A stretch of DNA of 64,000 nucleotides, taken from the NCBI RefSeq assembly GCF_037975245.1, contig NC_092570.1, forward strand, positions 577,501 to 641,500. The letters run 5' to 3'. A program made the translations under genes and the position numbers. Source of the stretch: Apostichopus japonicus (lineage: Eukaryota > Echinodermata > Holothuroidea > Aspidochirotida > Stichopodidae). The stretch's first letter is position 1. Each line of letters starts with the position of its first letter. Below, piece after piece: positions 6,986-42,361 of the stretch. Under the pieces are notes generated by a model. That model was given only the letters and a program-made list of their open reading frames with translations, had not been told where the DNA came from and made no database searches.

Positions 6986-7040
<55 letters not shown>

Positions 7041-10000
7041 AATAAATATACATATATATATAAATATATATATTTATTAATATATATTAATAGATATTAA
7101 TACATATATAGCACTGTATCCAAATTACACTAGCTTTAGCTTTAGTGTGTAGTTACACTATTATCAGTCTTTTGCTGTTTGCAGTAATTTGTTTAAGACA
7201 TCTATTGCCTTCAAGGTCTCTTTACTTTTAGTGGTCCACAGTCTTGGTATTATTTTGTAGGCTAGTAGCGCTATTGACAAACTAAGGTTTGACTAATCTT
7301 TAAGATAATGCCATAAAGTGGAGGTGTACTACTTTCTCCAGTCATCAAAGCCAAACTTTCAAATGGGTGAATTGGCAAGCATATTTTTCTAAGCCTGTTT
7401 GAATTTACATACTAGTGTTTGATATATCGATTAACTCTCCTTCACCGTTTTGTTTTACATCTTACCTGCTGACTTGATACCGTTTATAGTGATTGTTTTA
7501 GTGTCTGTATATTATTTTCACATGTATATTTCATATGCATTACCTGTGTTACCTGTATAATTATCCGAGAATACTGTTTTAAATTAGCTGCGTTCTGTCC
7601 ATCTTCTACCTGCAGTGTTCGCTTGCATCGGATTCCTCTCCCCAGCTAATCGCGGTTCCTTGATGACTGCTTCTCTCTTCATCTATGTCTTCCTTGGGTT
7701 CTTAGCTGGCTACGTAGCTGCAAGGATGTACAAGAGTAAGCAAGCTCATTTCATGCAGACTCTGTTCCATAAACCCCCTAACCAGTAAACCCCCCCTGGC
7801 ACCCTGCCTGGCTGATCACAAACCAACTCAATTTGAGAACGTCATTATGTGGAAAATTGTTGAAAGTCAGGCAGTGTGCATTTACTACCACTTATGAAAA
7901 GTGTGCCAGTTTTTTAAGTTTTGTCAGGAAAACTGAACATAATGGACTGGCAGTCAATTGTTATTCATGATTAAAAGTGTCTTAACAATTGTAACCAATC
8001 ACAGAAAAACACAATAGAGAAATATGTAAAAGTAAAATTTATACTTTGAATGCTTTGTTTCCCTTCACAGCGTTTGGAGGAGAACGTTGGAAGTCCAACG
8101 TACTGCTGACAAGTTTCCTGATCCCTGGAATAGTCTTCGGCATCTTCTTTGGCCTCAACCTCATACTTTGGGGAGAGGGCAGTTCAGCTGCCATCCCCTT
8201 CTCTACCCTGATTGCTCTATTGGCCCTCTGGTTCTGTATCTCCACCCCTCTTATTTTCATCGGATCATACTTTGGTTTCAGGCAAAGAGTGAGTATTATC
8301 ATTAATGAAATAAAGGGAAAGGAAACAAATCAGTTTTAATTACCAGCCACTGAAAACATGTAATATTATCTAAAGTAAGGGGACCATATGTTTCTCCTAC
8401 AAACACTGATGTAGATAATTGACCATCTCATGTGAACATCATGGGGTAGTATGTACTAAAGGCATCTCAGTATAGTAACATGTTGTAAGGATTGTCATAT
8501 ACCCAGGTTTATGTAAAACATCCTCCAGAAACAAGCACATTGACTCAATATATATTTATTTGAGCCCTTTTTAACAATATCAGGAATAGTAATGATCTGT
8601 GGACAGTCATTGAAAAGTTGGGAACTGTCCCTGGAATCAAAGTTGGGGACTGTCCCAGAATCAAAGACATCTGGTCACATTAATCTAAAGCATATGAGCA
8701 AATTGTCAAGAAAATGACACATTTATGGCCTGCAACTTTATCATATTTGACAATGGCCCTGTCTTACTGCTTGGTGTGTAGATAATGATATATCTGAAAC
8801 CTTTTGCTTAGTTTATATTTGAGAATGGCCCTGTCTTACTGCTTGGTGTGTAGATAATGATACATCTGAAACCTTTTGCTTAGTTTATATTTGAGAATGG
8901 CCCTGTCTTACTGCTTGGTGTGTAGATAATGATATATCTGAGACCTTTTGCTTAGTTTATATTTGAGAATGGCCCTGTCTTACTGCTTGGTGTGTAGATA
9001 ATGATATATCTGAGACCTTTTGCTTAGTTTATATTTGAGAATGGCCCTGTCTTACTGCTTGGTGTGTAGATAATGATATATCTGAAACCTTTTGCTTAGT
9101 TTATATTTGAGAATGGCCCTGTCTTACTGCTTGGTGTGTAGATAATGATATATCTGAGACCTTTTGCTTAGTTTATATTTGAGAATGGCCCTGTCTTACT
9201 GCTTGGTGTGTAGATAATGATATATCTGAAACCTTTTGCTTAGTTTATATTTGAGAATGGCCCTGTCTTACTGCTTGGTGTGTAGATAATGATATATGTG
9301 ATACCTTTTGCTAAGATTTGGGAGATACCAGTGTTCCAAAGTTGTGTTAACAGGCCACCATATTGTAATATGTGATGTTATAGTGCCTACCGGGTGAAAC
9401 CTTTTAGTTGCCCTCTTTTCTTCTTGTCATGTCGTAGTATTTTATTATTTTTCTATCATTGTTGGACAACCGTCTCTATTAGTTATCTATTACTGTTATC
9501 TATTACAGAGAATAAGTGTAATGAAAAATAAAGAAGATCATTGACATTTCAGGGATATATGTGAATGCGACTCATTGTTGATTATTTATTTAGAATTGCC
9601 CGAGTCTTCTGTACAAAGGAACGATGAAACATAAGAGTTGTCATTGTCCTTTACAGGTGGTTCTTATACCTCTGTACACAAATAAATCAACAAATAATCA
9701 CTGTGCCCAGAATCATATAATCCTCTTCTTTTAACTCATAGCCCATCGAGTTCCCAGTCCGCACCAACCAGATCCCTCGTCAGATCCCAGAGCAGACATT
9801 CTACACCATGCCAATCCCGGGTATCATCATGGGAGGTATACTCCCATTTGGCTGCATTTTCATTCAGCTGTTCTTTATCCTGAATAGCATTTGGTGAGCC
9901 ATTTATTGTCTTCCTCACAACATCTGTCATGCCCCCTTGCCGAAAGACAAAAGGAATCTATGTGATCGCAATGTTTACAATGCAAAGTAGATAGTCACAT

Positions 10001-21028: not shown

Positions 21029-21205
21029 ATGAAGGTTTCGTCCTTAGAGATGCCTTTTTTGGAGAAAATATTTACAAGTCTTATGTTCAGTCTGGTCTTT
21101 ATCAGTTGTGCACAGGCCATGTATATACCAGGCCTTGCACCCGTAAGCTTTTGCAGAGACGACTTTATTAGACAATCACGAGCAGATACAGATGAAGCTT
21201 GCAAG
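21029..21205 (+). CDS. TM9SF2: TM9SF2 copy B exon 1, signal peptide
   Basis: First coding exon, 59 codons, ending in phase 0 at CK followed by a GTTATT donor. The start at 21029 gives a basic/polar n-region, a hydrophobic core (IFTSLMFSLVFISC) and a probable cleavage site after AQA, just before the conserved IPGLAPVSFC. An internal ATG at codon 8 would also leave a working signal peptide, so the exact start is not certain. I see no convincing TATA box or initiator close upstream. Confidence 0.85.
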
Positions 21206-24200
21206 GTTATTGGTCTTTTTGCATTTTTTTGATTCTTTCTTTTTGAAGGTTTACCGTTCAATCACTGCATGCAACATCTCAGCATTGCTGAACCTTGCTG
21301 TGGACTTCTTAACCTGTAGGCTGTAGCTACCCTACTGAAGTCCATGTAGGCCTAAGGCTAGCCAGAGCCTCAGGCTACTTACTTTAACATTCAGTAGACC
21401 TATTACTAGACCTAGTAATACTAGGCGTAGCGGAAGCCCTTCGGTTATTTGCTAGCCTAGGCGTAACATTTTAACGGAGCGCAACTTCATTACAACTAGC
21501 ATTAACAGGCCTACATTTTCAACATAGCTTTCTAGCTGTTGAGTAGCTCTGTATTTCTGATCTGCTAATAGGCCTTCAGCCGTGTTCTATCAAAGCTTCA
21601 GTTGGCAAAGTTTTGCTAGCCTAGGCCTAGAATGTATTATTTTAGGTAAGCAAAAACAGACATGGAAAAGTAACAAAAATGGCTGCCAAAAAGTCACCAC
21701 TTTAATTCATAATTTTTTTATCATTTAGAGAAATTTGTATGTATGTATTTGTATGTATGTATTTTGAGATCCTCCTGCAAGCAGGAACTCACGAAGAAGC
21801 CTCACTGGCTTATCAAAGCCGCAAGCTGACTGAAGTCAGTCTCTTACATTCATATTTAACGTCCATGATTATGAATTGTTAATTGTCAACAACTCTGTAA
21901 CTGGATGACATACATTAATCTGGGAGTGACTCGAACCGGGGACCTTATGATTGAAAGGCACCGGCGTTAACGACTGAGCTAACACTCCAAATTATTAACA
22001 CTAAGTCCTGGCTGTGACTAGTGATCTTACCAAACTTGCCGAGAGCTGCCTGGAAAGGTGGTGGGGGGGGGGGAGGGGACAAAGCAAATTTGACAAACAC
22101 AGCGGATTAAAAAAAAATAAGCGTTTGTTACCATTTTTGAGGAGTGGTAGGGACAACAAATGAGAAGACTCTGGGGGGACATTGTGGACTATTTTGCTGT
22201 CATTTTAAATCATGTTTTTTTTCTGTGCCTCTCTTTCCAGACCGAAGTTGATGTTTTTGTCAATAGGCTTGATTCACTGGAAAATTTGCTCCCTTATGAA
22301 TATGACAGGTAAGGATGGTAACTTTTGGCAGTCAGTGAGGTTCACAACAGAAAATCTCTTATAATTGTGTGTACATACTGGAATATATTATGTTTAGTTT
22401 GTTGTTATAACTTCATAGGATATGACTTACCAGTATAGACATAGGAATTGACAATAGACATTTTATGAATCCGACTCATTTGTTTTACACACATTAACCT
22501 CTGAAACATGGAAACATCAGTTTTGTATTTTGAAACACTTTCATCGATTTTTCCACCCATTTAGTGGAATTATACAGTAAACTTCAACAAAACATGTGCA
22601 AAGTTAGGGAATATTTGCCTTCCTTGGGAAAAGGTTATCTCCTTAATTGTTCAAGTATTATTCTTCCTATTTTTGGCTGAATCTCAACAAACTATCGAAG
22701 AAATTGAAGATAGAACTAAACACATTTGAAAGCAAACTAATGAGAATGTTACTGCAGTTATTTCAAATGAAATTTGACTTGTAAATCTGATCCATTTCCT
22801 ATTAAAGAACGGTACTGTATCTTGTTTATGAAATATTTAAATAGTTTTCTACGACATAAAATGATGTTGTCAAATAAACTGCAGAAGCTGCTTGAAAGGC
22901 AAATCTGTAACTCTTGGTACATACATACTCAAATGTACATATATACAACATACACGCAAGCATGCACACAAGCACGCACACAGTCTCTAGTTTATTATAA
23001 CCTGTCTCATAGGCTACTACAGTGACTGCCTAACATCAAACTAATGATGTCCAAACCTGACCAACTTGAAGTTTCCTCCATTTCTTTTCTCTACATAATG
23101 CATATAAATGATGCATAGGCCTAGTTGTCAGTGTGTGTACTTTGGGTTTGTTTCCTCAAACAAAAAAAGTTTGCATCCCTAGTGTTCAAAGAAATTTGTG
23201 AGAAACATTGTATTGCAGGATATACAATGTCAGCGAGGGAAGTAAAAAATAAACTTCATAATTAAAAAAGAGACTACAAGAATGTTGTTGACCATGGTTG
23301 TATTCCTTCACAAGTGAACTGAAATGTCTCTTTACTCAAATTTTCCCTCCAGAAGGTTTAGTTTTCCGCGTCTTTGAAGTTCTCTGAAAAATTTCTGTCG
23401 CCTTTCCAGTCAATCATGCAGCATTTGTCGCTGCTGTCTAAAAACCCAACAAAAGAAGAATCCACATACTTATATGCACTACGAATGCGAAGATGTCTTC
23501 TTCGTTCATATAAATTTTTCCAACACTGAAATTGTCTAAAACGATAGAATGTGTACTATGTGTACGTACATAGTATTTCTTACAGTTTGTATGTTTACAT
23601 ACGTGTGCCTGTTGCAAGTAAGGGCTAGTTGTCACGACAACTGAGCTGTTTGCCGTCACCTACTTCCTACCCGCGCAAGGTCTGATTCACCGCTCTTTAC
23701 TTTGAACGGTTGATCAGATCCGTATCTGATCAATCGCTCGTGATCGACAACCATTTGGGAAAGCGGTATGTATCTCGATCTGGAGATATGGCTTAATAAT
23801 TCACCAAAGTTTATGGTAACAAATATCACCAGTCATGTTGAAGGCATCTATAGCCATCAGCAATAAAAATGGTAGAAATTTGAAAAAAAATCATTTGTAG
23901 CGTTTGCACATAACTGTTTGGGCAACTGGCCAGCAGGACTACCCAGTTTAAGATTCAAGTGGCCCTCCAGCTAACAAAATGGCCGATATGAATTTAATGG
24001 GATGAAAGGGGAAAAAAGGAAAGTTTCCATCATTGAATATTAATAAATAAGACTACCCTTAACATATTGTCTAGTACTTATCTGCAGCTAATACTGCATT
24101 GCACAATATTATAATGGTAGGTCTCACAGAGATTAATAATCACAAACAATTTAAGCATATTATTCACTCATATTTGACAAATCGTTACGATAAAAGGAAG

Positions 24201-27200
24201 TTCTTTTGTCATCTCAAACAGAAACCAACGACATATCCTGAAAGACTTGACGAAATGTATATTGATAACGTCATCTGTTAGTTCGTGAAGCAATTCTAGA
24301 GTCTATGAGAGAACTCAGACTAAATATTATCCAGGAACACCAAAGATAATGGTCGTAGGGATAAAAACATGGTAACTGGTTTTGAATTTGTCTTGCAGAA
24401 AGCAGTCACTTTTTAACCAATGCAGAAAATGAAAAAGAAGTCAATGCAACAGTTCTTGAAAATCCTAATAAGATTCATGTGAAATGTTAAAATACATGTA
24501 GTCTACTAGTTTGAAAGAACTGCCCTTTTAGTAATAGTACTGAGGATGATTAATACAACAGCCAATTAAAAGACAAATGATACACAGTTTCATGAAGTGA
24601 AAATTTAAGTATGTACACGTTAACGACATAAACAAATTGAGGACCTCAATTTGAGGATGACGATTCAAGGGCTTATGAGGGCGCTCTTCATAACAGACTT
24701 TTCTACCATACACACAGTTCAGCCAAATATTTGTCTGATGGTGACAATTTGAGGACATCCCCCATACTGATACAGGAGCATTCTGGGGTCACTTTGACTC
24801 CATTCCCCAATTTTACAATTTCAGGACGTCCTCAAATTGAGGGTTACACATGCATACAAGCACATGCACACACACATACATACATACAGTACTGTACTAT
24901 ACTCTGTACATTGCTCACTCTAGGTAAAGATTTGGATCTCTTTGGCTCTCTGCTTCAAACAACATTTCTTTCATGGCTCTCATACAGTTCAGTCCTGCAC
25001 TAGCTTCACTTTACTTGAGGAAAAAATGATTTTGTTTTTTGTTTTCCATTTTAAATTGTTGAAACCAGGTATGATTTTTGCCAAGCAGGAGAGGAGGATC
25101 AGTCTCCAGCTGAAAAACCACTGGGCAGAATCATGGAGATAATGTCCTCACTGCTTTCCTTAAAACCATACCTGTCTTCTATTTAGTTTTTGGCCTTTGT
25201 TTAGTATTAATTAAAATCTTGCAATTGATCACATTTAATCACCATGTTTTTGTTGTTGTTGCTGTTGTCACCAAGTGAAGTCCTACAGTAGATATGGACG
25301 CTTGACTTGTGGAAGAAATTATTATTATTTTTCATTTTAAATTGTTAAAACCAGGTATGATTTTTGCCGAGCAGGAGAGGAGGATCAGTCTCCAGCTGAA
25401 AATCTTGGCCAGGTTGTCTTTGGAGAACGAATCAGACCATCGCCATATAAGTTCACATTCAGGAAGGATGAGACTTGTGCCCATGTCTGCACTAAGAGTT
25501 ACGATCTAAATAATACCGATGACAAAAAGAAAGTAAATCTGTTGAAGAAAGGAGTGCTCTTTAACTATCAGCACCACTGGTAAGCAGTAATTGTAAAATT
25601 TTGTTTCTGATACAAAATTGAGCCATAGCTTACAGTAGGTTCACCATGAATGTAGTTTTCACTGGCCTGTGATCACATTCTTTGGTGACTTACAGAGAAC
25701 ATTGTGAAATACTGTACTTGATCTCATTTGATCATCAATATGGCATGTTTAATTCTTTTTATGTGACAAATGTTGTATAAGGAGAGCAAGCTAGGTCATC
25801 ACATACAATATCTTTCATGAAGTATTTTTCCATGCAGCTGGGTCAAATAGTCAAATTATTGCTACCTTTTTATTGGGGGGGGGGGGGGTTTCACGATAAG
25901 CAGCTCTGTCAAATAGGTTAATGACATTGATGTGGGATGATTTTGATTTAAACTATAAGTTGTAAATATCTTGAGTACTACAAATGCAAGACTGAAAAAA
26001 ACCCTCACCTAACCACGTTGGCAAATATTCTTGGACATTGTTTAATATTTTGACGAGGAAGTTTTACTAGTTGATGGGGGATGGTCGCTGTGACAGGTAC
26101 ACCATGTACAGTATGTTTGAGCTGAAGAAACATTCAAAAGACAACGATAAAGACACCGTTACTCCTACTCATACTCTGCTGTTTGATTCTGAGGTCCAGT
26201 AACTCAGTTGGCTGAGTAAATGTCAACATAGTGTGCATTCGTAGTCAAGAATATGGTGCAACATTGCATGTTTATGTATACTCTGGTAAATTTCCAGGAT
26301 CATCGACAACATGCCTGTTACTTGGTGTTATGATGTGCAGACAGAGTATCCTGGTCAAGAGGTTTCCCAGCAGTACTGCTCCCCAGGGTTTCCTGTTGGG
26401 TGCTTTGTTGATGGCGAAGGCCATCGTAAAGATGCTTGTGTCATTGATGTAAGTCACAAAGGGTCACTCTTCTCAAGGAGTGTTTGATTGGTTAATAATT
26501 TGGGTCCAGCTACTTGCCACCTAGCTGTCCGATAGTGTAATGAAAGTTAGACATTTACGGTTGCTTACAGTTACAAGAAATTTTACAAGAGGACACTTTG
26601 TGTGACCCTCAGCTTCCACCGTCTTTGCCTTGGGCATGTTCTTAGAAGCAAATGAAATTGGGGGGGGGGGGGGGGGAAGGGCATGAGAATAAATCATAAC
26701 TGAAATAAATTTAAGGCAATAATACTTTTCTGGATGCCATATATTTGTAATTTACTTGCTGCTTACAACAGTGGTTGTGCATGTTCTATGGATTTGTGTT
26801 AGAGGGATGATATTTTTTTAAAGGTCTTGTCTGATCATCAGAGGTAACTAACATTTGAATGAAACTTGACAAAGAATGCCAATGTTGCACTTTCATATAC
26901 AAATAAGCAGTTTCCAATAAAAGACTTGTTCAATTACTAATTATACAAACTCTAGAAACTAATGTGGTTTACATATTAGGTTCAAGTCTAAAAAGGTTGT
27001 TAACAATAGTAAAACTTGCTGAACCTCATACTTACAGTATGTATCTATTATGTGGATCCAAATAAGTTAGATCAAGAATACAATTGTTTTTGTGGGTGTC
27101 AGAGGTCAGTAGAAGTCACAGAAAACCTTGTACAATGGATAATTTTACCAAGAATGGATCAAACATTATCTTTAGATGATACTTGGTTTCTTTTGATGTT

Positions 27201-30200
27201 AGTTGAGTTAGTTGAGTTCAATACCCATATATCCTTGTTATTGACTATACACCTATGACTGTCTCCCATTCAGCAACGTTACGGAGTAAAGAGCAGCTAT
27301 TACATCTTTAACCATGTGAACATTGAAATTGAATATCATCCCGTTGTTAAAGAGGGCGGCAAAGACTGGGAGGTCGCCAGGCTTGTTCGGGCCAGAATTA
27401 CACCATTCAGGTGAGACTGTTAGATCCTATATCGTTGCATTTTGGGTAAAATTTAGTATTTGTAGTTTGCATAGCAGTTGAGAGGTCTATGATAACTAGT
27501 TTCGGTTCTCTGTTAAAAACTGCCCGACAACTTTCAAGCATTGTTAACAAATGCAGGATCCTACGTCCAGGACACAATGTGTTAGCCAAGAACACAAAAT
27601 CTTCCTTTTTTTCTTCTGATGAGAAACAAAGCCCAAGAACACACACTTACAACTGGGCCTTTGCAAATCATAAGAAGTGGTTTCTTTCTTTTTAAAAAAA
27701 CTTCTTCTGAAAGAACCAGATATCTTCCAATCTTACAGATGATTGAAATTGTGTGAAAACAAATCAATCTCCAACCATCAACCACAAGGTTTATGCATTG
27801 TCAAAAGTAGCCATTGAAGTTTGATTTTTTTGGGGGGGGACATTGTGTAAAAAGTTATTTACATAGGCCTACTATAATTTTAGTTGTTGGATCATATTTG
27901 AGGATTTGTGCATAGGTTGTTGAAACTCCTATGTTTTTACAGGCCTATGTACATGCAGTAATGAGCTGCATAGAATTCAGAGAAGATTGTGCACTGTAGC
28001 CTAGGTACTGTGATTTTTGAAGAGTTGTTTGTTGATGAAATCACCGCAAGGTTAAAGCATGGCGCTACTTCTGAGTTGGCGAGTAGGGATGTATAAGGGC
28101 AGTTGAAAGAGGGGCAGGGCGGCAAAAGAGGGGCGAGCCCAGGGATGCCGCCCTGTAAACAGGGAAGCTAGGGCAGTTTGGCCATCTGCTCTATATATTG
28201 GCTCTATACAATCGCATCTTTGCCACTCCACTAGTAAATGTAGCTTGGAGTTGGGTTGGGTTTAGCTCCTGTCTTTATTGCTAATATACATCGACCAGGC
28301 ATCAAAGCTAAAACAAAGACATCCTTGATACTCCTTAATGTTGTAAACCTATCCTAAAGTTTCTCCCAAAAGCATACTTTCTACAGCCTTTATATTGTCA
28401 ATATCTTGAAACTGTACAAATATTAGACAAGTATTAGAGAAGAGTAATGTGCAGGTATTTGTGAGCTCTTTGTGTTTGAAATGATCCTGTTGTAGTACAC
28501 AGTTATCATACTTAAATTTGTAAGTCTTGTAACTGAATCTCCTTCTCACAGGGTGTAGGGTGATTGGCTGTGAATTATTTCACAGGGAAGTAGGCTCGTC
28601 AGTCAACAGAATAACAAGAATGTCAAACAAGATAGTAACATGAAAATACTGTTGGGCACCACTTGTGTTAACGTTTCAAAATACACAAACCCAAAGTATT
28701 TTCAATGTATAAAGTTACAACAAATGGAATCAAGGGGTCTTGGAATACTACTAAGTGCAAGTAGATCACAAAACTATTTCCTTCATGCAGTGAAAGATGT
28801 TTTTATTTGGCAATATGCATCAATTAGAAAAAAAACCTATTTGTGAGACAAACCTTTTAGAATTGAGTGGAATCTGTTATGTTTCATTATGTAACATTTA
28901 ATTGCTGTTATATTATAAGAGGGTCTCTTACCTTCTTCATTTGTTAAAATACTTTGATAAATAATCAAGTTTATTATGTTACTTGCTACATTTGTTCACC
29001 AAATTTATGCTCAAAGCTGTCATTTGAGAATAATATTGTTTGATTTCTGTGTTTGTGTTTTTCACAGTGTTGTTCAAGATATGGAATCAGATGGTAGAGT
29101 TAAGAGCTGTAGTATTGCTCAGGAAGGCAAAATTGGTGGTGGCATCTTTTTCTCTGCACAAGGTGCTGAACCACAGATTAAAAAAGTAGATATTACCTAT
29201 ACATACAACATTACTTTCAAGGTTAGTGAAAAGTTGCATTGTATTAATGTAAGTTAAAATGGTACTGTTTACCCAATTTGAGCTGTATTAAGTATAAGTA
29301 TATGAGTAATGAGTATTACATGAGATGGTATTGTAATTTGTTAACTGAAAAGAGACTGGTTGTACTTAACGTCAGAGAACTTCTCACACCCTGATATACA
29401 TGTTAACAGTAACATCAATCAATTTAAAGGAATATTGTTTGTTGCTCTTGTTTGGTTGTAGCAGAAGATAAATTGCAATGGATCCCCAAGTATAGAGTCA
29501 GGGCCCAATCCCTGCTTGAATTTAGTAGGTCCATGTAGAGGTAGTGACAGCTGAGCATTATTTTGGCATATTTAACTGTCACTGTGTTGGTGTGTATTGA
29601 TTTAATCCATGAAAAACTCAAAAGCCACAATCAGCAGCATATTAACTTTGGTCCTCTTTTTGACGTCTGGCACTCACTGTCTTTTTTCTATGTACATCAG
29701 AAACTCTTCAAACTGAAGTTAACATATTTCTGCTGCCTCTTTGCAGGAAAATAAAGACATTTTTTGGGCTTCTCGATGGGACTATGTTCTTGATTCCATG
29801 TCTCACACAAGAATACAGTGGTTCAGGTAACAATGCTGTATAAATGACAATATTTTCTACCTAAATACTCATGGTCAATAATTGGTTTATTTAAAGCAGC
29901 TTCTGGGTATTAAAATTCCACAGCTACCTGAGCTGTTACTAAAAGTCTTTTCATTTCAAATACTAACTTAATTTGAAAGAAGAAATCTTTTTGCTTCAAT
30001 TGGAATTTAATTGTCATTTAAGATCAAACTGTTAGCAGGATTCTAACCTGAGTGCCTTGTAAGTAGGTTGTCTCCAAGTGAGTACCTTATAAGCAGGATA
30101 TCTCAACATGAGTACCTTGTAAGCAGGATATCTCAACATGACTACCTTGTAAGCAGGATATCTCAACATGAGTATCTTGAAAGCAGGATATCTCAACATG

Positions 30201-31812
30201 AGTACCTTGTAAGCAGGATATCTCAACATGAGTACCTTTTAAGCAGGATATCTCAATGGTAGTACCTTGTAAGCAGGATATCTCAACGTGAGTACCTTGT
30301 AAGCAGGATATCTCAAAGTGAGTACCTTGTAAGCAGGATATCTCAACATGAGTACCTTGTAAGCAGGATATCTCAACATGAGTACCTTGTAAGCAGGATA
30401 TCTCAACATGAGTAGGCCTACCTTGTAATCAGGATATCACAACATTAGTACCTTGTAAGCAGGATATCTTTATGTGAGTACCTTGTAAGCAGGATATCTC
30501 AATGTGAGTATCTTGTAAGCAAGATATCTCAACATGAGTACCTAATAAGCAGGATATCTCAACCCGAGTACCCTGTAAGCAGTATATCTCAACATGAGTA
30601 CCTTGTAAGCAGGATATCTCAACATGAGTACCTTGTAAGCAGGATATTTCAAGAAGAAAAACTCTATTGCTTGAAGTGGTGGTCAAAGGCCAGCAGTTGT
30701 CAATGTCTCTAAATCTTCATAAATGACATCTCCAAAAGAGAAACTTGGATGGATCTCATAGTAAAGCATGAAGCTCAATGTTACTTAGATGAATCCTGTT
30801 GCTTTTAGTGTAGGTCAAAGGTCAGCACAGCTGAAGACCAAAAAAAAACAAGATATCTCAAGAAGGGAATGAACTGTTCAGTCAAACAGGGATTTAAGCT
30901 TTGGAAAATTTGTAAACATGATAACTCAAGATAAAATCTTTGGATAACAGCCACATAAGGAATTTATCTCTTTGCTTAATCAAGACATCTCATACCTTTT
31001 GTCTTTCCATCAACAGTATCACAAACTCTCTGGTGATTGTTGTGTTTCTGACTGGTATGGTAGCCATGATTTTGATGCGCACCCTTCACAAGGACATTGC
31101 TCGCTACAATGAAATGGACTCGGTAAGTTCTTGCCTGCAGGTCAATTTCTGATATGGTGAAAAGCTCAAGGATGAACTTTTTTTTGCCAATTCAGGGAAA
31201 TTCACCATGTCTGTCACAATATTGGTTCCTTTAGTAACTGTTATGCCTCAACAGTGGTCATGCAGTTTTCTCTAATAATCGAATCTAAGAAGGACTCTTT
31301 AAGCATACAGTTTGTGCAATTCATTTCTTCTTCATTTCAATCATTAGAAAGAAGCTCAAGAGGAAACCGGCTGGATAGTGGTCCATGGTGATGTTTTCCG
31401 CCCTCCCAGGAAAGGAATGCTGCTGTCTGTGCTCCTGGGTACTGGCTCACAGATCATTGTTATGACCTTCATCACTCTATGTGAGTATTATGTGTATACA
31501 AGGGAGTAGGGAAGATGAGGATAAGGAGAGGGAGGAGGGGAGGAAGGCAAAACCAAAGCAGGAAGAAGTGGGGAGTAGAGAGGGAGGAGGGAGGGAGAGT
31601 GAAAGGAGGAGGAAGGGTGGAGATGGTGGTTAGTGGATGAAAGCTATGGCAGCTATCCACCATGTATTAAGCATGTGTTCAGAATGTAAACTTCACTTGC
31701 ATCTTTTCTTTGCTCCAGATTTCAGCTAATGCATTACATAATGTACAACAAATACAATATATATATATATATATATATATATACACGAATATATACACAT
31801 ATATATATATAT

Positions 31813-31856
<44 letters not shown>

Positions 31857-34800
31857 CACTGTATCCAAATGACATTAGCCTTAGCTTTCGTGTGTAGTTA
31901 CACTAATCTATTGCTGTTTCCAGAAACTTATTTGAGAAATCTATTGTGTTCAGTATCCTTTACTGTTAGCGATGGCGGTCCATAGTCTTTGTTTTATTTT
32001 TTAGGCTAGTAGCGCTATTGACAAACCAAGGTTTGACTAATCTTTAAGATAATGCCATAAAGTGGAGGTGTACTACTTTCTCCAGTCATCAAAGCCAAAC
32101 TTGTACTTATTAAGTGGGTGGGTTGGCTAGCATATTTTTCTAAGCCTGCTTGAATGTACATACTATATCGATTCACTCCTCCTCAGCTGGTTTGTATTTC
32201 CATTGTAACTGCTGACTTGATACTGTTTATAGTGTTTCTTTATAGTTTTGTTTGTAGTGTTTGTTTATAGTGTTGGTTTACAGTTCTTGTTTGTAGTGTT
32301 TGTTTATAGTGTTTGTTTATAGTTTTGTTTGTAGTGTTTGTTTATAGTGTTGGTTTACAGTTCTTGTTTGTAGTGTTTGTTTATAGTGTTTCTTTATAGT
32401 TTTGTTTGTAGTGTTTGTTTATAGTGTTGGTTTACAGTTCTTGTTTGTAGTGTTTGTTTATAGTGTTTCTTTATAGTTTTGTTTGTAGTGTTTGTTTATA
32501 GTGTTGGTTTACAGTTCTTGTTTGTAGTGTTTGTTTATAGTGTTTCTTTATAGTTTTGTTTGTAGTGTTTGTTTATAGTGTTGGTTTACAGTTCTTGTTT
32601 GTAGTGTTTGTTTATAGTGTTTCTTTATAGTTTTGTTTGTAGTGTTTGTTTATAGTGTTGGTTTACAGTTCTTGTTTGTAGTGTTTGTTTATAGTGTTTC
32701 TTTATAGTTTTGTTTGTAGTGTTTGTTTATAGTGTTGGTTTACAGTTCTTGTTTGTAGTGTTTGTTTATAGTGTTTCTTTATAGTTTTGTTTGTAGTGTT
32801 TGTTTATAGTGTTGGTTTACAGTTCTTGTTTGTAGTGTTTGTTTATAGTGTTTCTTTATAGTTTTGTTTGTAGTGTTTGTTTATAGTGTTGGTTTACAGT
32901 TCTTGTTTGTAGTGTTTGTTTATAGTGTTTCTTTATAGTTTTGTTTGTAGTGTTTGTTTATAGTGTTGGTTTACAGTTCTTGTTTGTAGTGTTTGTTTAT
33001 AGTGTTTCTTTATAGTTTTGTTTGTAGTGTTTGTTTATAGTGTTGGTTTACAGTTCTTGTTTGTAGTGTTTGTTTATAGTGTTTCTTTATAGTTTTGTTT
33101 GTAGTGTTTGTTTATAGTGTTGGTTTACAGTTCTTGTTTGTAGTGTTTGTTTATAGTGTTTCTTTATAGTTTTGTTTGTAGTGTTTGTTTATAGTGTTTC
33201 TTTATAGTTTTGTTTGTAGTGTTTGTTTATAGTGTTGGTTTACAGTTCTTGTTTGTAGTGTTTGTTTATGGTGCTTGTTTGTATTGTTTCTCTATGGTGT
33301 TTGTTTATAGTTCTTGTTTGTGTTGTTTCTTTTTAGTGTTTATTTGTAGTGTTTGTTCATAGTGTTTGTATACTATATTCACATGTATCTTTCATATGCA
33401 TTACTTGTGTAACCATTTTGTTTAATTATCCCAAAATACTGTTTTAATTGAGCTGCGTTCTGTCCATTATTTTACCTGCAGTGTTCGCTTGCATCGGATT
33501 CCTCTCCCCAGCTAATCGCGGTTCCTTGATGACTGCTTCTCTCTTCATCTATGTCTTCCTTGGGTTCTTAGCTGGCTACGTAGCTGCAAGGATGTACAAG
33601 AGTAAGCAAACTCATTTCATGCAGACTCTGTTCAATAAACCCCCTAACCCGTAAACCCCCTGCCTGACTGATCACAAACCAACTCAATTTGAGAACGTCA
33701 TCATGTAGAAATTGTTGAAAGTCAGGCAGTGTGCATTTACTACCACTGATCAAAAGTCTGCCAGTTTTGTCAGCTTCAGTCAGGAAGACTGAACATAATG
33801 GACTAGCAGTCAATTGTGATTCATGACTAAAACTGTCTTAACAATTGTAACCAATCACAGAAAAACACATTTTTGCATGTGAGCTTATCAAGCAGACAGG
33901 TCTATAACAGAAAACAGTTGTTGTGTGTTCTCATCTGTGGTTCAATGTACAGAGGTCAGCTGTTAAACTATGATTCTTCAAGGTTATTGAAATTTAGGTC
34001 ACAGCAGTCAAGTTGAGTTGGGTAATGTTCAAATTGGGCATTGGCCAGCTGGATTGCAACTTTCTGCTAGCTTTAATAAAAGAAAAGAAAGGAATATTAG
34101 CGATGATGAAGGTTGTCAGCCTTTCCATTCTACTGTCAGGGAATGGCTTAAACCATTTAATCAAAGTTTATTTATTTCCGTTGAAACCAAATTTTCAACC
34201 AAAAAACCCCACCAATTTACTGATTTTGTTTAATGTTCTCAATATTAGCTGTGTTGTCCTAATCATACTCTCACCAAACACAGCAAAAGAAATACGTAAG
34301 AAGCAAAAGTTTTACTTTGAACGCTTTGTTTCCCTTAACAGCGTTTGGAGGAGAACGTTGGAAGTCCAACGTACTGCTGACAAGTTTCCTGATCCCTGGA
34401 ATAGTCTTCGGTATCTACTTTGGCCTCAACTTCATACGTTGGAGAGAGGGCAGTTCAGCTGTCATCCCCTTGTATACCCTGATTGTTCTATTGGCCCTCT
34501 GGTTCTGTATCAACACCCCTCTTATTTTCATCGGATCATACTTTGGTTTCAGGCAAAGAGTGAGTATTATCATTAATGAACTAAATGGAAAGGAATCAAA
34601 TCAGTTTCAATTACCAGCCACTGAAAATATGTAATATTATCTAAAGTAAGGGGACCATATGTTTCTCCTACAAACACTGATGTAGATGTTGACCATCTCA
34701 TGTGAACATCATCTCTGTCTCTGGAATCAAAGTTGGGGACTGTCCCAGAATCGAAGACATCTAGTCACATTAATCTAAAGCATGTGAGCAATTCTCAAGA

Positions 34801-37800
34801 AAATGACACATTTATGGTCTTAAACTTAAACATATTTGACATGGCCCTGTCTTACTGCTTTGGTGTGTAGATAATGATATATCTGAAACCTTTGGCTTAA
34901 CCTATACTTGATCATATTTGACATGGCCCTGCCTTACTGCTTGGAGTGTAGATAATGATGTATCTGAAACCTTTTGCTTAGCTTACTTTGCTAAGCATAG
35001 TTTGCTTAGCTTACTTTGTATAGGAGAATCAGGACAAAGATGTCACTAAATGTTAAGATTGTATACCTGAATGTTATACCTCTCTGGTGGTTAATTTCAT
35101 ATAATATTTAAACTAGTAAAGTGAACTTATTTTGTTCAGGGAAAAGGACACTCAACATCTTGACTGTATATGAGAGAGATCTTTTAAATGCACAACTCCC
35201 CCAAAGAATCTAAAGAGTCTCCATTGGGAGATACCAGTGTTCCAAAGTTGTGTTAACAGGCCACCATATTGTAATATGTGATGTTATAGTGCCTACCGGG
35301 TGAAACCTTTTAGTTGCCCTCTTTTCTTCTTGTCATGTCATAGTATTTTATTATTTTACTATCATTGTTGGACAACCGTCTCTATTAGTTATCTATTACT
35401 GTTATCTATTACAGAGAATAAGTGTAATGAAAAATAAAGAAGATCATTGACATTTCAGGGATATATGTGAATGCGACTCATTGTTGATTATTTATTTAGA
35501 ATTGCCCGAGTCTTCTGTACTAAGGAACGATGAAACATAAGAGTTGTCATTGTCCTTTACAGGTGGTTCTTATACCTCTGCACACAAATAAATCAACAAA
35601 TAATCATTGTGCCCAGAATCATATAATCCTCTTCTTTTAACTCAAAGCCCATCGAGTTCCCAGTCCGCACCAACGAGATCCCTCGTCAGATCCCAAAGCA
35701 GAAATTGTACACCATGCCTATCGTTCGTATCGTCATGGGAGGTATGCTCCCATTTGGCTGCATTTACATTCAGCTGTTCTTTATCCTGAATAGCATTTGG
35801 TGAGCCATTTATTGTCTTCCTCACGAAATCTGTCATGCCTCCATTTTTCCTTGCCCAAAGACAAAAGGAATCTATGTGAATGCGAAGTTGACAAAGCATA
35901 GAAAAAAGTCAACTATTTGTGTACATATTTGTTTTGCTATTACTGTATCTGATTACTACTGATATGAAAAAGTGTTGGGGTCCTCAAATTTCAAGAATTG
36001 TGTCCAATAATTGATTGCTTGCGGCTTTGAATTCCTTTGGTTAATAAATCTGGGGCTCTAGTGGCATAGTAGTCTATTTTTGGTTCCTTGCTAAAAGCAA
36101 AGGAACCTATGTATTCAGGTTGGCGTGTGTGTGTGTGTATGTGGGTGTGTGTGTGTGTGACGCTTTAGCTTGTATGCACGATAACTCAACAAGGGATTGA
36201 CTGATCATGATCAAACTTGGTGGGTGGGTGGCCCATAGTGAGTAGATGAACCCTATTGTTTTTGGTGCCCACAAAGGTCACCAAAGGTCAGTTATGGTCC
36301 AAAAACCCAAAATACTAAAACTGCAATAACTCCCAGTGCCAATGTGCGACAAGGTTGATATTTTGGGACAAGTTGTGAACTGGTTAGGGGAACATTTTGA
36401 AACTTAATGGTCATGTGATCTGAGGTCACCAAAGGTCAATTAATGTTAAAAAACTAGTATTTTTGCGATAACTTGAGAACGAATTGTCCGTTAGGGTTGG
36501 GAGTTGCTTCAGTGTAATCCAATTGTCGACCCACATCTGGGTGACCCTTGACCTCAATTTGACCTCTGGTGACCTTTTCATGTTTTGGGGATTTTTACAG
36601 TTTCGATGCTATTTTCAGATGTCAAAGGTACCTTCTGATCATAAATATCGATAGGTTGACCCCCGTGTGACCTTTGTGTGCGAACTTATATGGGGTCAAA
36701 GTTTTCGGTCGGAGTTAGGATGGCTGTACAGACTTGTCGTGTTGATTTTTGGAATCAGCAGATCAAACTACATTTGAAACCAAGGTCAAAAGGTCAAAGG
36801 TCACATTAGAAAAAATGTGCTTATTTTGGGAGAAAACGGGCAAAAAAGAAAATGTTTGGTTTTGATGCTAGATTTGGATATCAAAGGTACCTTCCGATCA
36901 AAAATGTCAATGGGTTGACACCCGGGTGACCTTTCTGTGTAAAGTTATACAAGGTCAAAGTTAATTTTCAGACATTTAATGCAATAACTCCCAGTGCCAA
37001 GGTGTAACAAGGTTGATATTTTTGGACAAGTTGCAAATGGTATAGAGGAATATTTTCAAACTTAACGGTCATGTGATCCGAGGTCATCAAAGGTCAATTA
37101 ATGTTAAAAAACTAGTATTTTGGGTGAGAAAATGGGCAAAGAAAAAAATGTTTGAATTTTTAGAGTTTTGATGCTATATTCACGTCTCACCAATCAAAAA
37201 TGTCAATAGGTGACCCCAGGTGACCTTTGTGTGTGAAGTTATATGAGGTCAAAGTAAATTTTCAGACATTTAGTGCAATAATTCCCAGTTCCAAGGTGTG
37301 ACACCGTTGATATTTTGGGACAAATTGCAAATGGTATAGGGGAATATTTTCAAACTTAACGGTCATGTGATCCGAGGTCACCAAAGGTCAATTAATGATA
37401 AAAAACTAGTATTTTTGCGATAACTTGAGAACGAATTGTCCGTTAGGGTTGGGAGTTGCTTCAATTTAATCCAATTGTCGACCCGCATCTGGGTGACCCT
37501 TGACCTCAATTTGACCTCTGGTGACCTTTTCATGTTTTGGGGATTTTTACAGTTTCGATGCTATTTTCAGATGTCAAAGGTACCTTCTGATCATAAATGT
37601 CAATGGGTTGACCCCCGTGTGACCTTCGTGTGCGGAGTTATACGAGGTAAAAGTTAATTTTCAGACATTTAATGCAATAACTCTCAGTTCCAAGGTGTGA
37701 CACGGTTGATATTTTGGGACAAGTTGCAAATGGTATAGGGGAATATTTTCAAACTTAACGGTCATGTGATCCGAGGTCACCAAAGGTCAATTAATGATAA

Positions 37801-40800
37801 AAAAAACTAGTATTTTTGTGATAACTTGAGAACGAACTGTCCGTTAAGGTTGGGAGTTGCTTCAATGTAATCCAGTTGTCGACCCGCATCTGGGTGACCC
37901 TTGACCTCAATTTGACCTCTGGTGACCTTTTCGTGTTTTGGGGATTTTTACAGTTTCGATGCTATTTTCAGATGTCAAAGGTACCTTCTGATCATAAATG
38001 TCTATAGGTTGACCCCCGTGTGACCTTCGTGTGCGAAGTTATACGAGGTCAAAGTATATAATAATAATATATATTAATTAATTTATTAATATAATAATAT
38101 TAATGAGGTCACGGGTCAAACGTGAAAAACGCCCAAGTTGCAATAACTTGGCTACTATTTATTGGAATTTCGTCAAACTTGGTATGATGATATTGGTAGA
38201 TAGTCTCCACACACTGATGTGTGTTGCAATTGATATAATGCATGTTTATAAGGGGGGGGGGGGGGCCTAGCATTATTTCGTTATGAAAAGTTTGTATGCA
38301 CAATAACTCAACAAGGGAATGACCAATCATTACCGTACTTGGTGAGTGGGTGGCCCATAGTAAGTAGATTAACCCTGTTGATTTTGGTGCTCATATCATG
38401 AATATTAATGAGGTCATGGGGTCAAACGTGAAATACTCCAAATTGCAATTACTTGGCTATGGTAGATAGTCTTCGCACACTGATGTGTGTTGCAATTGAT
38501 ATCAGGGCTTAGCATTACTTTGGCAACCAAATTCTGTGTGCATGAATTGCTGTTGTTGTCATAGGGCTTTCTTAGAAATTTCCCTATGAATGGAACTAAT
38601 AAACAGCAGCAAGGAACCATGAAATGTTTTCATTCTGGTTAGTTATGATAAGTTGACAAATATTGGTGACCCAATGCAAAAGCCTACTTTAACTTAAAAC
38701 ATCAAGTTGTTACTGTATTGTGATGTCATATCAACTAAACAATAAACTCTATCATTCCTAAAGAGCAGATTAAGAGGATTCTGGAATATTGTCTAACGTG
38801 ATCCAGTTTACACTCTGTAAATGTGCTTTTAGCATGATGTATTAGTATGTTGTGGGATCCTTAGAGTTTGGACAACCAACTCTCACTTGCGGACAACCTG
38901 CAAACTGGAAGTGGCATATTTTCATTAGAGTGGCATATTTTGATATCTACATTTCAACTTTCTTCAAAGTCAATTCTACATTTATTTGTATAAGTGACCA
39001 TTGACATGTTGGTTTATTGATGACGCTCTGTGTTGATTGCTTGCAGGTCCCATCAGTTTTATTATATGTTTGGATTCTTGGCGGTCGTCGCTCTTATACT
39101 CGTCATCACCTGCTCCGAGGCTACAATCCTCCTCTGTTATTTCCATCTTCGTACCGAGGTAAGTTTGGAGGCAACAAGCTCCTGAAGGTAGCTGATTTCA
39201 CTCTTCCCCTGTGATCAAAACACTTAGTTAGCTCCAGTAACTAGGGCATGATCCATAACAATGTTATGAAATCATCCTTTTGGCCTCTTAGGATGAAGCA
39301 AAGAAAAATTGTCTAACCAGAATGCCAAAAACAGTGTCCAATTTTGTGCTCATGTACATGTGTGTGCTCATGTACATGTGTGTGCTCATGTACATGTGTG
39401 TGCTCATGTACATGCTAGTGTGCTCATGTACATGCTAGTGTGCTCATGTACATGCTAGTACGTGTGCTCATGTACATGCTAGTGTGCTCATGTACATGCT
39501 AGTGTGCTCATTTACATGCTAGTGTTCTCATATACATGCTAGTGTGCTCATGTACATGCTAGTGTGTGCTCATGTACATGCTAGTGTGTGCTCATGTACA
39601 TGCTAATGTGTGCTCATGTACATGCTAGTGTGCTCATGTACATGCTAGTGTGCTCATGTACATGCTAGTGTGCTCATGTACATGCTAGTGTGCTCATGTA
39701 CATGCTAGTGTGCTCATGTACATGCTAGTGTGCTCATGTACATGCTAGTGTGCTCATGTACATGCTAGTGTGCTCATGTACATGCTAGTGTGCTCATGTA
39801 CATGCTAGTGTGCTCATGTACATGCTAGTGTGCTCATGTACATGCTAGTGTGCTCATGTACATGCTACTGTGCTCATGTGCATGCTAGTGTATCATACAT
39901 GTAGGCTAGCATATCATGAATGTAGGCTAGTGTATCATACATGTAGGCTAGTGTATCATACATGGAGGCTAGTGTATCATACATGTAGGCTAGTGTATCA
40001 TACATGTAGGCTAGTGTATCATACATCTAGGCTAGTGTATCATACATGTAGGCTAGTGTATCATGAATGTAAGTTAGCGTATCTTGAATGTAGGCTAGTT
40101 TATCATACCTTTACATGCTTGGCTAAAAGCATACCAGAGTATTCAAGTGTGTCATACTTTTGAAAGCTAAGTCTCTTTATGAAGTACGTCTCTGTACATG
40201 TGAATATGAAACAGCTAAAAGCTGAGGAAAATGATAAGTCATCATCTTAAAGTGAATGTAGGATACAGCTACAATAAAGATTGAGTCTCTTGGAATATGT
40301 AAAAGTTTTTGCATTGTGATAACAGAATGCAGCAAAAACAAACATAGTGCAGAACCATGATAAAAAATAGCAAATTAGTATCGTTGCTACTTGTTTCACT
40401 GGATTGCCTATTCATGTTCAATACCACATAACTATTCTCCATCAAGATACCCCACCTTTAATTGTAATAATCCACATAAATGATTAAATTTACAGGAATC
40501 TTGTTCAAGTCCATTCAGTTTCCATTAAAGTATTCTTGGCAATTCTGAAAGTATTAAACATGTTTCCTCATGCAGGACTATCAATGGTGGTGGCGCTCTT
40601 TCCTGACCAGTGGCTTCACAGCTTTCTATTTCCTGGTCTACTGCCTCCACTACTCGTGGTCTCGTTTGGAACTGACTGGACTGGCAAGCCGCGTTCTATA
40701 CTTCGGATACACTTTCATCATGGTCATGATTTTCTTCCTCTTCTGTGGTAAGTAGTCAAGCAAAAACATAACCGAACCGAAATTGAAATCCCATTTCTGA

Positions 40801-42361
40801 TACCATGTTTCAGAGTAGGATGTACACAACACTTGTATTTCATTTTACATTCACGTCCTACTTTCAACATGCATATAGCCAATGATAAGTAGCTAGAAAC
40901 TCACTGAAGAAACTAAATAAAGTTTGATAGATGGGAGACACCATTAGCTATAAAGAAATTAGCTACCTCAGAAATACGATTATGTGACTAAGATGGAATG
41001 ATTCAAGTTTGTTCAACAATATCAGCTGTTAAAGAGGAGAGGCGCAGCAGCTGCAAATCTCCCACCGAATGGCTGAATCAATAATAAACAATTGAGTAGT
41101 GCCTTCTGTTTGAAACTGCTGTGCATAAAAGATTGTCCTATGCAGCCTAGCTTCAGTGATGCTGCAGCCCCCTCAGCATCTGACGCAAATCTCCCACCGA
41201 ATGGCTGAATCAATAATAAACAATTGAGTAGTGCCTTCTGTTTGAAACTGATCAATAATAAACAATTGAGTAGTGCCTTCTGTTTGAAACTGCTGTGCAT
41301 AAAAGATTGTCCTATGCAGCCTAGCTTCAGTGATGCTGTAGCTTCCTCAGCATCTGACTCAAATCTCCCACCGAATGGCTGAATCAATAATAAACAATTG
41401 AGTAGTGCCTTCTGTTTGAAACTGATCAATAATAAACAATTAAGTAGTGCCTTCTGTTTGAAACTGCTGTGCATAAAAGATTGCTCTATGCAGCCTAGCT
41501 TCAGTGATGCTGCAGCTTCCTCAGCATCTGATGCAGATCTCCCACGGAATGGCTGAATCAATAATAAACAATTGAGTAGTGCCTTCTGTTTGAAATTGCT
41601 GTGCATAAAAGATTGTCCTATGCAGCCTAGCTTCAGTGATGCTGCAGCCCCCTCAGCATCTGACGTAAATCTCCCACCGAATGGCTGAATCAATAATAAA
41701 CAATTGAGTAGTGCCTTCTGTTTGAAACTGATCAATAATAAACAATTGAGTAGTGCCTTCTGTTTGAAACTGCTGTGCATAAAAGATTGTCCTATGCAGC
41801 CTAGCTTCAGTGATGCTGCAGCCCCCTCAGCATCTGACTCAAATCTCCCACCGAATGGCTGAATCAATAATAAACAATCGAGTAGTGCCTTCTGTTTGAA
41901 ACTGCTGTGCATAAAAGATTGTCCTATGCAGCCTAGCTTCAGTGATGGTGCAGCCCCCTCAGCATCTGACTTTTGGCATGATTTTTGATGCCAGAATCAA
42001 TTAGTTAGCTTCATTGTGTACAAAATGGCATTTCATGACATTTCATACATATCTATGTGCATTACTAATCTGTTAGCTATTTTCTTGCTATATGATGGAG
42101 AGCGTTTGTAGATATTTTTTTAATGCATTCTGTGGCTCCGGTCCATAATTGAGTGGTGTTAACCTCTCCCTGTAATTGTCAAAGTGCAATTTTCTTGATG
42201 TTCTGCTGTAATGTCTTGCTTCTGCAGGTACCGTTGGTTTCTTCTCCTGTTTCTGGTTTGTGATGAAGATCTATTCTGTGATCAAAGTGGATTCATTTGA
42301 CAACGGTTTGGGCAAAAAGATTGCCATTGTTTCTGACACAACTCGCCAGGTAGTGAGCTAA
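21029..42361 (+). CDS. TM9SF2: TM9SF2-like nonaspanin, copy B (complete, diverged, extended C-terminus)
   Basis: Second tandem TM9SF2 homolog. Exons: 21029-21205, 22241-22308, 25355-25579, 26298-26448, 27274-27410, 29068-29221, 29747-29826, 31017-31122, 31348-31480, 33482-33601, 34342-34559, 35648-35799, 39047-39158, 40576-40747 and 42228-42361. These total 2139 bases, or 712 codons plus stop; human TM9SF2 is about 663 aa. A signal peptide (residues 1-30) is followed by MYIPGLAPVSFC, a luminal domain to about residue 330, then nine membrane segments. All splice sites are canonical and there are no internal stops. Compared with copy A there are roughly 40 residue changes, concentrated in exons 6, 9, 11 and 12. 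Examples are [13 protein letters not shown] to IRWREGSSAVIPL, and [13 protein letters not shown] to IPKQKLYTMPIVR. The family stop after KVD is lost and 22 residues are added. It could be a neofunctionalised paralog, a gene drifting toward decay, or partly an assembly duplicate. Confidence 0.93.
21735..21988 (-). mobile_element. tRNA-derived SINE
   Basis: On the minus strand the element opens GGAGTGTTAGCTCAGTCGTT, with a tRNA A-box, and has a B-box GGTTCGAGTC (21928-21937) at the expected distance. A unique body follows, then a tail of TACATACA repeats (21736-21763). The T-arm cannot pair, so it is not a working tRNA. AAATT may be the target duplication. It lies in intron 1 of TM9SF2 copy B. 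Confidence 0.75.
23118..23185 (+). repeat. Short relic of the intron 5 transposon family
   Basis: The order 'ctagttgt...gtgtgtactt...gtttgtttc...aaaaaagtttgc' repeats the right subterminal part of the copy A insertion (3827-3878). It lies in intron 2 of copy B. Confidence 0.4.
24644..24842. mobile_element. Small MITE-like element in copy B intron 2
   Basis: About 200 bases are bounded by 18-bp inverted repeats with two mismatches: CCTCAATTTGAGGATGAC at 24644, and CCTCAATTTGAGGACGTC read from the other strand at 24842. Each end also contains the self-complementary CCTCAATTTGAGG. There is no coding content. Confidence 0.5.
25047..25116 (+). pseudogene. Partial duplicate of TM9SF2 copy B exon 3 start
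   Basis: Seventy bases repeat the branch/acceptor region and the first 16 codons of exon 3 (25333-25402) at 286 bases upstream. The AG acceptor at 25067-25068 is kept and the frame reads YDFCQAGEEDQSPAE before diverging to KPLGRIMEIM. No donor matching the real exon follows, so it is either a dead exon fragment or a decoy acceptor. Its glutamine after YDFC is the residue I recall in human TM9SF2, while the real exon has arginine there. Confidence 0.75.
27508..28515 (-). repeat. Copy-B-specific insertion in intron 5 with inverted repeat copy
   Basis: About 1 kb of copy B intron 5 has no counterpart in copy A. It replaces a roughly 90-base stretch between the shared words ctagtttcggttct and gtaagtcttgtaactg. 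Within it, 27940-28155 matches copy A 2690-2960 in the opposite orientation. I could not fix its ends. Confidence 0.5.
29068..29221 (+). CDS. TM9SF2: TM9SF2 copy B exon 6, replacement-rich
   Basis: Luminal-domain exon of 154 bases, partner of copy A 4147-4300. By hand alignment I count 10 changed residues and no silent differences. These include K to R, two G to S, S to F, P to S, and W to F at the last full codon pair (TYNITWK to TYNITFK). The flanking intron ends are almost identical between copies. Confidence 0.85.
30020..30990. repeat. 30-bp minisatellite and repeat relic, copy B intron 7
   Basis: The same 30-bp unit as copy A occurs here in about 20 copies (30035-30655), followed by the same AGGTCA-type relic. 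The array has expanded or contracted since the gene duplication. Confidence 0.7.
31759..31856. repeat. TA/CA-interrupted microsatellite, copy B intron 9
   Basis: TA runs are broken by ACAC pieces, at the same intronic position as the copy A TA array. Confidence 0.8.
32230..33330. repeat. 77-bp higher-order tandem repeat, copy B intron 9
   Basis: A T/G-rich array with a 77-base period built from shorter sub-units such as gtagtgtttgtttatagt, in roughly a dozen repeats. Copy A intron 9 has only a single seed-like stretch near 7485-7515, so the array arose after duplication. Confidence 0.85.
34342..34559 (+). CDS. TM9SF2: TM9SF2 copy B exon 11, replacement-rich membrane exon
   Basis: This exon encodes membrane segments 4 and 5 and the loop between them; its partner is copy A 8071-8288. 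About nine residues differ and one change is silent. Two new arginines replace L and G next to segment 4 (NLILWGEG becomes NFIRWREG). The block in A is the one I recall as conserved in the human protein, so B is the derived copy. Confidence 0.85.
35648..35799 (+). CDS. TM9SF2: TM9SF2 copy B exon 12, replacement-rich membrane exon
   Basis: Exon for the [12 protein letters not shown] loop and membrane segment 6; its partner is copy A 9742-9893. About nine of 50 residues differ (Q to E, E to K, T to K, F to L, P to V, G to R, I to V, I to M, F to Y) against one silent change. The roughly 290 intron bases just upstream differ at only a few positions. Confidence 0.85.
36082..38618. mobile_element. 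AGGTCA-rich TIR repeat, copy E1, in copy B intron 12
   Basis: This 2.5-kb block is absent from copy A intron 12. It starts GGTTCCTTGCT (36082-36092) and ends with its exact complement AGCAAGGAACC (38608-38618). The start also folds on itself, since AGCAAAGGAACC follows at 36096. A TG tract and family words come next: cgataactcaacaaggga, and gagtagatgaaccctattg. The body contains partial tandem units of about 400 bases (36467, 37420, 37825) dense in AGGTCA/TGACCT. No protein is encoded. Confidence 0.65.
39343..40110. repeat. Derived 20-bp and 21-bp tandem repeats, copy B intron 13
   Basis: At the position of the copy A array, copy B starts with a few 18-bp units. It changes to a 20-bp unit carrying CTAG (tgtgctcatgtacatgctag, to about 39890), then to a 21-bp unit (tatcatacatgtaggctagt plus g). 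Confidence 0.85.
41040..41966. repeat. 132/174-bp tandem repeat, copy B intron 14
   Basis: The word caaatctcccaccgaatggc and close variants start at 41054, 41186, 41360, 41534, 41666 and 41840. Spacings alternate between 132 and 174 bases; the long form has an internal 42-base duplication. Copy A has one unit at about 11897-12053. All periods are multiples of 3, leaving a 296-codon open frame on the minus strand, most likely spurious. Confidence 0.85.
42228..42361 (+). CDS. TM9SF2: TM9SF2 copy B terminal exon with stop-loss extension
   Basis: Homolog of the copy A last exon, identical in protein up to KVD (residues 688-690). The TGA is replaced by TCA at 42293-42295, and the frame continues for 22 residues (SFDNGLGKKIAIVSDTTRQ, then VVS) to TAA at 42359-42361. 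The added tail is polar, has a KK pair and is not hydrophobic. A possible splice donor lies within it (CAG followed by GTAGTG at 42350), so a transcript could also splice out before the TAA. I judge the simple extension more likely. Confidence 0.8.

Follow-up and report, generated by a model that had tools for sequence, protein, structure and literature searches.

Asymmetrically evolving young tandem duplicates are a general class, and the gene pair described here is of this ordinary kind. The window, a 64,000-nucleotide stretch of the Apostichopus japonicus genome (C10:577501-641500), holds most of two TM9SF2-like (EMP70) genes arranged in tandem on the + strand, named here copy A and copy B. 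As in that class, one copy is conserved and the other derived, the frame is intact and the ratio of replacement to silent substitution rates (dN/dS) is near 1; no decisive difference from the class was noticed, and the contrast between exons is marked here. From the sequence comparisons taken together, we consider it reasonably probable that B is a young, intact, asymmetrically evolving TM9SF2-like duplicate under relaxed or shifted constraint. This reading is backed by the intact frames, a pairwise dN/dS of 0.85, a polarity of 29:2 in favour of A, the quiet of exons 8, 10 and 13–15 and the lack of any donor found for the residues of B.

The TM9SF proteins (nonaspanins) carry a C-terminal KxD/E motif, KVD in TM9SF2, which interacts with COPI (PMC6348303). 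The same study reports that terminus-masking tags or mutations of the motif affect COPI interaction, localisation and function, and that TM9SF2 motif mutants rescued glycolipid synthesis to a lesser degree or failed to rescue it (PMC6348303); a Golgi-retention role of the motif is also described (PMC8096605). Copy A is like TM9SF2 in its terminal KVD, as the motif is given in PMC6348303, and both copies match EMP70, whereas B is unlike it in having 22 residues after the KVD and radical changes such as L483R and P549V. The pair also resembles the red/green opsins and Tigriopus GOT1p1/p2, duplicates in which selection maintains a divergence peak against gene conversion, in being a close tandem pair with uneven divergence and some conversion-like identical tracts. 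The opsins show raised divergence in exon 5, flanked by introns that differ little, and an exon divergence peak between homogenised introns is the form that selection takes under gene conversion (PMC3924837); similar divergence islands are described for Tigriopus GOT1 (PMC3728101). Here, unlike in the opsins, the introns have diverged at least as far as the changed exons, the stretch immediately before exon 12 excepted. Such a conversion-protected peak was not seen in this pair, as no exon stood above its 150-bp flanks and exon 12 exceeded the preceding intron only.

Gene models and polarity of the coding differences

The modelling of A and B used 30 kb of DNA upstream of the window, and the genome searched comprised 671.6 Mb in 35 contigs. 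Copy A encodes 690 amino acids; its gene starts 1864 bp before the first base of the window, and exons 1 and 2 and part of exon 3 lie upstream. Both gene models have 15 exons of equal length except for the last, and every intron is GT-AG. The full coding sequences (CDS) of the two models align without any coding indel or premature stop, and by pseudogene criteria B showed no frameshift, premature stop or broken splice site, the terminal stop alone being lost. The duplicated unit is discrete, the upstream flank of A having no copy before B, and the genome keeps the conserved copy A about 23 kb from B. Against the Pfam EMP70 profile (PF02990, cut-off 27), A scored 690.2 bits and B 658.8 bits, and both cover profile positions 1–516 of 517. 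Judged by descent and by this match, B is still a member of the EMP70/TM9SF family despite its non-terminal KVD.

Across the whole CDS, 55 codons are replaced between A and B and 20 carry silent changes. The codon list for exons of both copies within the window gives 40 and 13, which bears out the count of about 40 replacements against about a dozen silent changes in an earlier note on this DNA. The interval marked there runs exactly from the start of B exon 6 (29068) to the end of B exon 12 (35799), and its replacement-to-silent counts for exons 6, 11 and 12 (10:0, 9:1 and 9:1), the identity of exon 10 and the silent-only change of exons 8 and 14 were all reproduced (Table 1). B exons 8, 10 and 13–15 are almost unchanged and exons 6, 9, 11 and 12 carry many changes; the radical changes in B include L483R, G485R, P549V and G550R. 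Replacements are unevenly spread across exons (p = 1e-4), the same test on silent changes gave p = 0.13, and heterogeneity of the replacement-to-silent ratio across the 15 exons gave p = 0.059. The path-averaged counts of exon 2 (2.5 replacement, 3.5 silent) were rounded in the flank and branch tests described below.

The direction of change was judged with a human TM9SF2 sequence as guide, together with three paralogs from the same genome. A is identical to the guide at 447 of 654 aligned sites (418 + 29). Among the 49 changed sites alignable to the guide, A matches at 29 and B at 2 (binomial p = 4.6e-7). When all 55 changed sites were compared with the guide and the three paralogs, the residue of A alone was found at 28, that of B alone at 1, both at 4 and neither at 22; 8 of the 10 changed sites in exon 6 are not polarisable. 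The blocks which the earlier note had cited from human TM9SF2 (23 protein letters, and IPEQ) are present in copy A, and its proposal that B is the derived copy agrees with the 29/49 against 2/49 matches. As far as the guide and the paralogs polarise them, these sites show that A keeps the ancestral residues and B takes nearly all of the decidable replacements. Conserved positions are not spared in exons 9, 11 and 12: they make up 20 of the 22 changed sites that could be aligned and 118 of the 146 unchanged ones.

Table 1. Position and content of the two gene copies and of selected exons of copy B (window coordinates)
Feature	Coordinates	Strand	Content	Basis
Copy A, in-window part	1..12351	+	Rest of exon 3 to exon 15	Gene model
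Copy B	21029..42361	+	15 exons, 712 aa	Gene model
B exon 6	29068..29221	+	10 replaced, 0 silent codons	Gene model, codon list
B exon 8	31017..31122	+	One silent change	Gene model, codon list
B exon 9	31348..31480	+	4 replaced, 3 silent codons	Gene model, codon list
B exon 10	33482..33601	+	Identical to A	Gene model, codon list
B exon 11	34342..34559	+	9 replaced, 1 silent codon	Gene model, codon list
B exon 12	35648..35799	+	9 replaced, 1 silent codon	Gene model, codon list
B exon 14	40576..40747	+	One silent change	Gene model, codon list
B exon 15	42228..42361	+	Serine codon in place of the stop of A; KVD followed by 22 more residues	Gene model

Divergence of exons, introns and the B branch

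The introns were aligned one by one with the splice-site margins dropped, and an alignment to B was possible for 8209 of the 12143 intron bases of A. The aligned introns differ at 593 of 8209 positions (7.2%) and the CDS at 86 of 2070 (4.2%), which is below the introns (p = 1.8e-7); silent divergence, at 4.8%, is somewhat under intron divergence (p = 0.03). The suggestion that exons evolve faster than introns therefore did not hold. Nor are the introns flanking the changed exons nearly identical, as had been thought, since the 150-bp flanks differ by 6.7–7.7% (22/298 for exon 6, 23/300 for exon 9, 20/293 for exon 11 and 20/300 for exon 12). That description fits only the approximately 400 columns just before exon 12, which hold 5 differences against 12/152 in the exon itself (Fisher p = 2e-4), and the intron after exon 12 begins at 14 differences per 100. 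The replacement rate was significantly above the 150-bp flanks in 0 of 15 exons (smallest p 0.25); with 400-bp flanks that of exon 12 was above them at an uncorrected p = 0.038. The intron alignments contain 126 small gaps (15.3 per kb), and the introns also carry large insertions. At this gap rate about 32 gaps would be predicted in the 2070 bp of CDS. The complete absence of coding indels where so many are predicted speaks for B having been functional over a large part of its history.

When counted by nucleotide over the whole CDS, there are 61.5 replacement differences at 1483 sites and 24.5 silent differences at 506 sites, and the pairwise dN/dS was found to be 0.85 (bootstrap 0.56–1.43), falling to 0.73 when transitions and transversions are given equal rates. 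With about three replacement sites to every silent one (3:1), the ratio of about 40:13 is close to the neutral expectation, and no selection for new residues is needed to explain the totals. Exons 6–12 pooled (39:9) are not unusual under neutrality (p = 0.16). Exons 6, 9, 11 and 12, a set picked after looking, gave a pooled dN/dS of 1.91 (0.97–6.11). The counts of exons 6, 11 and 12, also picked after looking, pool to 31:3 (p = 0.012), and a best-three-exons statistic that allows for the choice of exons gave p = 0.15. Selection should be inferred from replacement-rich exon counts of this kind only after the 3:1 site ratio, the intron yardstick and the polarity of the branches have been taken into account. 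A dN/dS near or below 1 had been named beforehand as the outcome that speaks against selection; the pair-wide value is of that kind, and the figure for the B branch hinges on the assumed neutral split between the copies.

Since the replacements fall on B and neutral change presumably on both copies, about half of the intron divergence was used as the neutral yardstick for B. At half the local intron rate, 3.5, 3.7 and 2.8 replacement differences would be expected in exons 6, 11 and 12, where 11, 10 and 10 are observed (p = 0.001, 0.005 and 0.0007; excess statistic over 15 exons, p = 0.00035); exons 8, 10 and 14 have none, with 3.7–3.9 expected in each. With 60, 70, 80 or 100% of neutral change placed on B, the p value of the excess becomes 0.0041, 0.026, 0.12 or 0.53. 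Collapsing differences no more than 3 bp apart reduces the 593 intron differences to 426 events, and the exon pattern stays, with p = 0.0017, 0.012 and 0.0012 for exons 6, 11 and 12 and 0.097, 0.062 and 0.041 for exons 8, 10 and 14. A neutral B branch would be expected to show 11.5 replacement events in exons 8, 10, 13, 14 and 15 combined, and only 1 is seen (p = 1.2e-4). These rates suggested an acceleration of the B branch in exons 6, 11 and 12, given the assumed neutral split between A and B. The excess in these three exons is the best argument for selection in the data.

Several mutational sources of the exon pattern were tried and rejected. Multi-nucleotide mutation was set aside as the pattern survives the collapsing of neighbours, although with weaker p values. 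CpG decay would account for little, since of the 43 differences in exons 6, 9, 11 and 12 only 2 fall at a CpG of A, and GC-biased conversion runs in the wrong direction, with 20 G/C to A/T changes against 9 A/T to G/C in the same exons.

C-terminus of copy B and competing explanations

Copy A ends in KVD-stop and thus presents a terminal KxD/E motif, and the paralogs on contigs C9 and C6 end in KID-stop. In copy B the motif is no longer at the very C-terminus, as the KVD is followed by 22 residues, which align with the sequence of A just past its stop. The earlier note did not mention this loss of the stop. By analogy with the effect of terminus-masking tags, the COPI signal of B is probably masked by this tail. 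A tandem duplication gave rise to the pair, A stayed ancestral and B accumulated replacements, and the loss of the stop put 22 residues after the KVD that normally binds COPI. Under the reading that we favour, B would probably no longer be retained in the Golgi in the way that A is and, freed from part of the ancestral constraint, would be drifting toward a different role or toward loss. If B works, it would provide a natural experiment on a TM9 protein whose terminal COPI signal is no longer free and in which conserved residues have been altered.

Some observations weigh against relaxed or shifted constraint as the full account. The replacements of the B branch in exons 6, 11 and 12 are 2.7–3.6 times the expectation at half the local intron rate, which exceeds what relaxation predicts, A and B being then assumed to mutate equally; the pooled dN/dS of these exons, which were picked after looking, is 3.83 with a bootstrap lower bound of 1.60. 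Relaxed function and recent death of B would look alike in the present data, and short conversion tracts may account for part of the lack of change in exons 8 and 14. The excess in exons 6, 11 and 12 raises the possibility, which we regard as rather unlikely, that positive selection changed these exons (perhaps exon 9 as well) and made B a neofunctionalised nonaspanin. The survival of the pattern when neighbouring changes are collapsed and the intact frame of B are in accord with it. The pairwise dN/dS of 0.85 and the best-three-exons result are not, the excess fades as the share of neutral change assigned to B rises, until p = 0.53 at 100%, and exon 6 is mostly not polarisable. As for the earlier proposal of positive selection, an excess in the three exons is suggested, but the pair-wide counts are about neutral and the exons do not exceed the introns. 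In a fuller form, put forward tentatively and doubtful on present sequence, selection would have changed residues of the membrane core and loops in exons 11 and 12 and of the luminal exon 6, and the loss of the stop would have capped the COPI signal and released B; if true, the neofunctionalised B would be a Golgi cargo-handling protein released to a later compartment or the cell surface. It is improbable, though less far-fetched than the explanations that follow, that B is in neutral decay, recently functionless and with the lost stop as its only disabling change so far. An overall dN/dS near 1, changes in exons 9, 11 and 12 that do not avoid conserved sites, the 20 to 9 predominance of G/C to A/T changes and the lost stop would all agree with decay, but 2070 bp without an indel or nonsense change despite the high intron gap rate, and the single replacement event in exons 8, 10 and 13–15, where 11.5 are expected, do not.

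The exon contrast could also be a mosaic in which A overwrote exons 8, 10 and 13–15 of B but not exons 6, 9, 11 and 12. A 162-bp run is identical between introns of A and B (permutation p = 0.003), identical runs that span exons 8 (164 bp) and 14 (175 bp) continue for 92 and 69 bp, respectively, in the intron downstream, and silent change affects few sites (4 of 142) in exons 8, 10, 13, 14 and 15. Intron divergence is uneven, from 3.3 to 14.7%, with introns 3–5 and 11 at 3.3–5.2% and introns 1–2 at 10–15%. However, divergence is 5.9–10.7% across the full introns that adjoin the unchanged exons (8, 10 and 14), which favours purifying selection on these exons, and the 150-bp flanks of exon 10 differ at 24/289. 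Conversion alone also leaves unexplained the low silent change beside many replacements in exons 6 and 11, and we hold the mosaic to be very unlikely. The idea in the earlier note that conversion homogenised some exons is therefore kept for the identical runs and the low silent change, but the divergence of the introns beside exons 8, 10 and 14 speaks against it there. Some conversion between A and B is likely on the evidence of these tracts, and it probably acts beside either relaxed constraint or adaptive change. We find it scarcely credible that the differences stem from faults in the assembly or the sequencing or from a second haplotype placed wrongly: in the coding sequence there are only substitutions, which leave the frame intact, while the introns carry large insertions and gaps, and the matching unit is discrete, without the upstream flank of A before B.

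Between 21206 and 29067, the divergence of B from A drops from 10–15% (introns 1–2) to 3–5% (introns 3–5), which suggests conversion in that part. Another TM9SF paralog as donor of the B residues was rejected, since exons 11–12 of B matched only themselves and A in the genome; the search, in which simple repeats were skipped, gave one further match at 70% on contig C20 that was confined to intron. Over exons 9, 11 and 12, F373T and L481F are the only changes at which B and the C9 paralog have the same residue.

Relatives of the pair and repeats around it

The other EMP70 matches in the genome are three loci on contigs C6, C9 and C17, which are distant paralogs and are more distant than A from the human TM9SF2 guide. 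Searches for relatives of copy A in viral_contigs and genome_contigs returned 2 and 38 pattern matches, none of which was confirmed. A PDB sequence search gave 0 matches at E 0.1, and Rfam gave 0 matches in the window. Among the papers listed, the literature search found no report of a TM9SF2 tandem duplicate, which is weak evidence of absence.

Intron 2 of B contains, at 25064-25135, a partial duplicate of the start of exon 3 including its acceptor. This fragment has D90E like B but the codon of A at Q87, so that Q87R would have arisen in B later. Intron 9 of B holds a 77-bp minisatellite of about 15 units (32224-33357), for which the listing at the same score gave no counterpart in A, and introns 7 (30 bp) and 13 (18 or 20 bp) carry arrays of differing length in both copies. 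Outside the two genes, a 27-bp tandem array of 13 units at 45976-46332 is open in several frames on both strands; it looks like a minisatellite and not a gene. A 21-bp array of 12 units at 19541-19803 also matches itself in inverted orientation.

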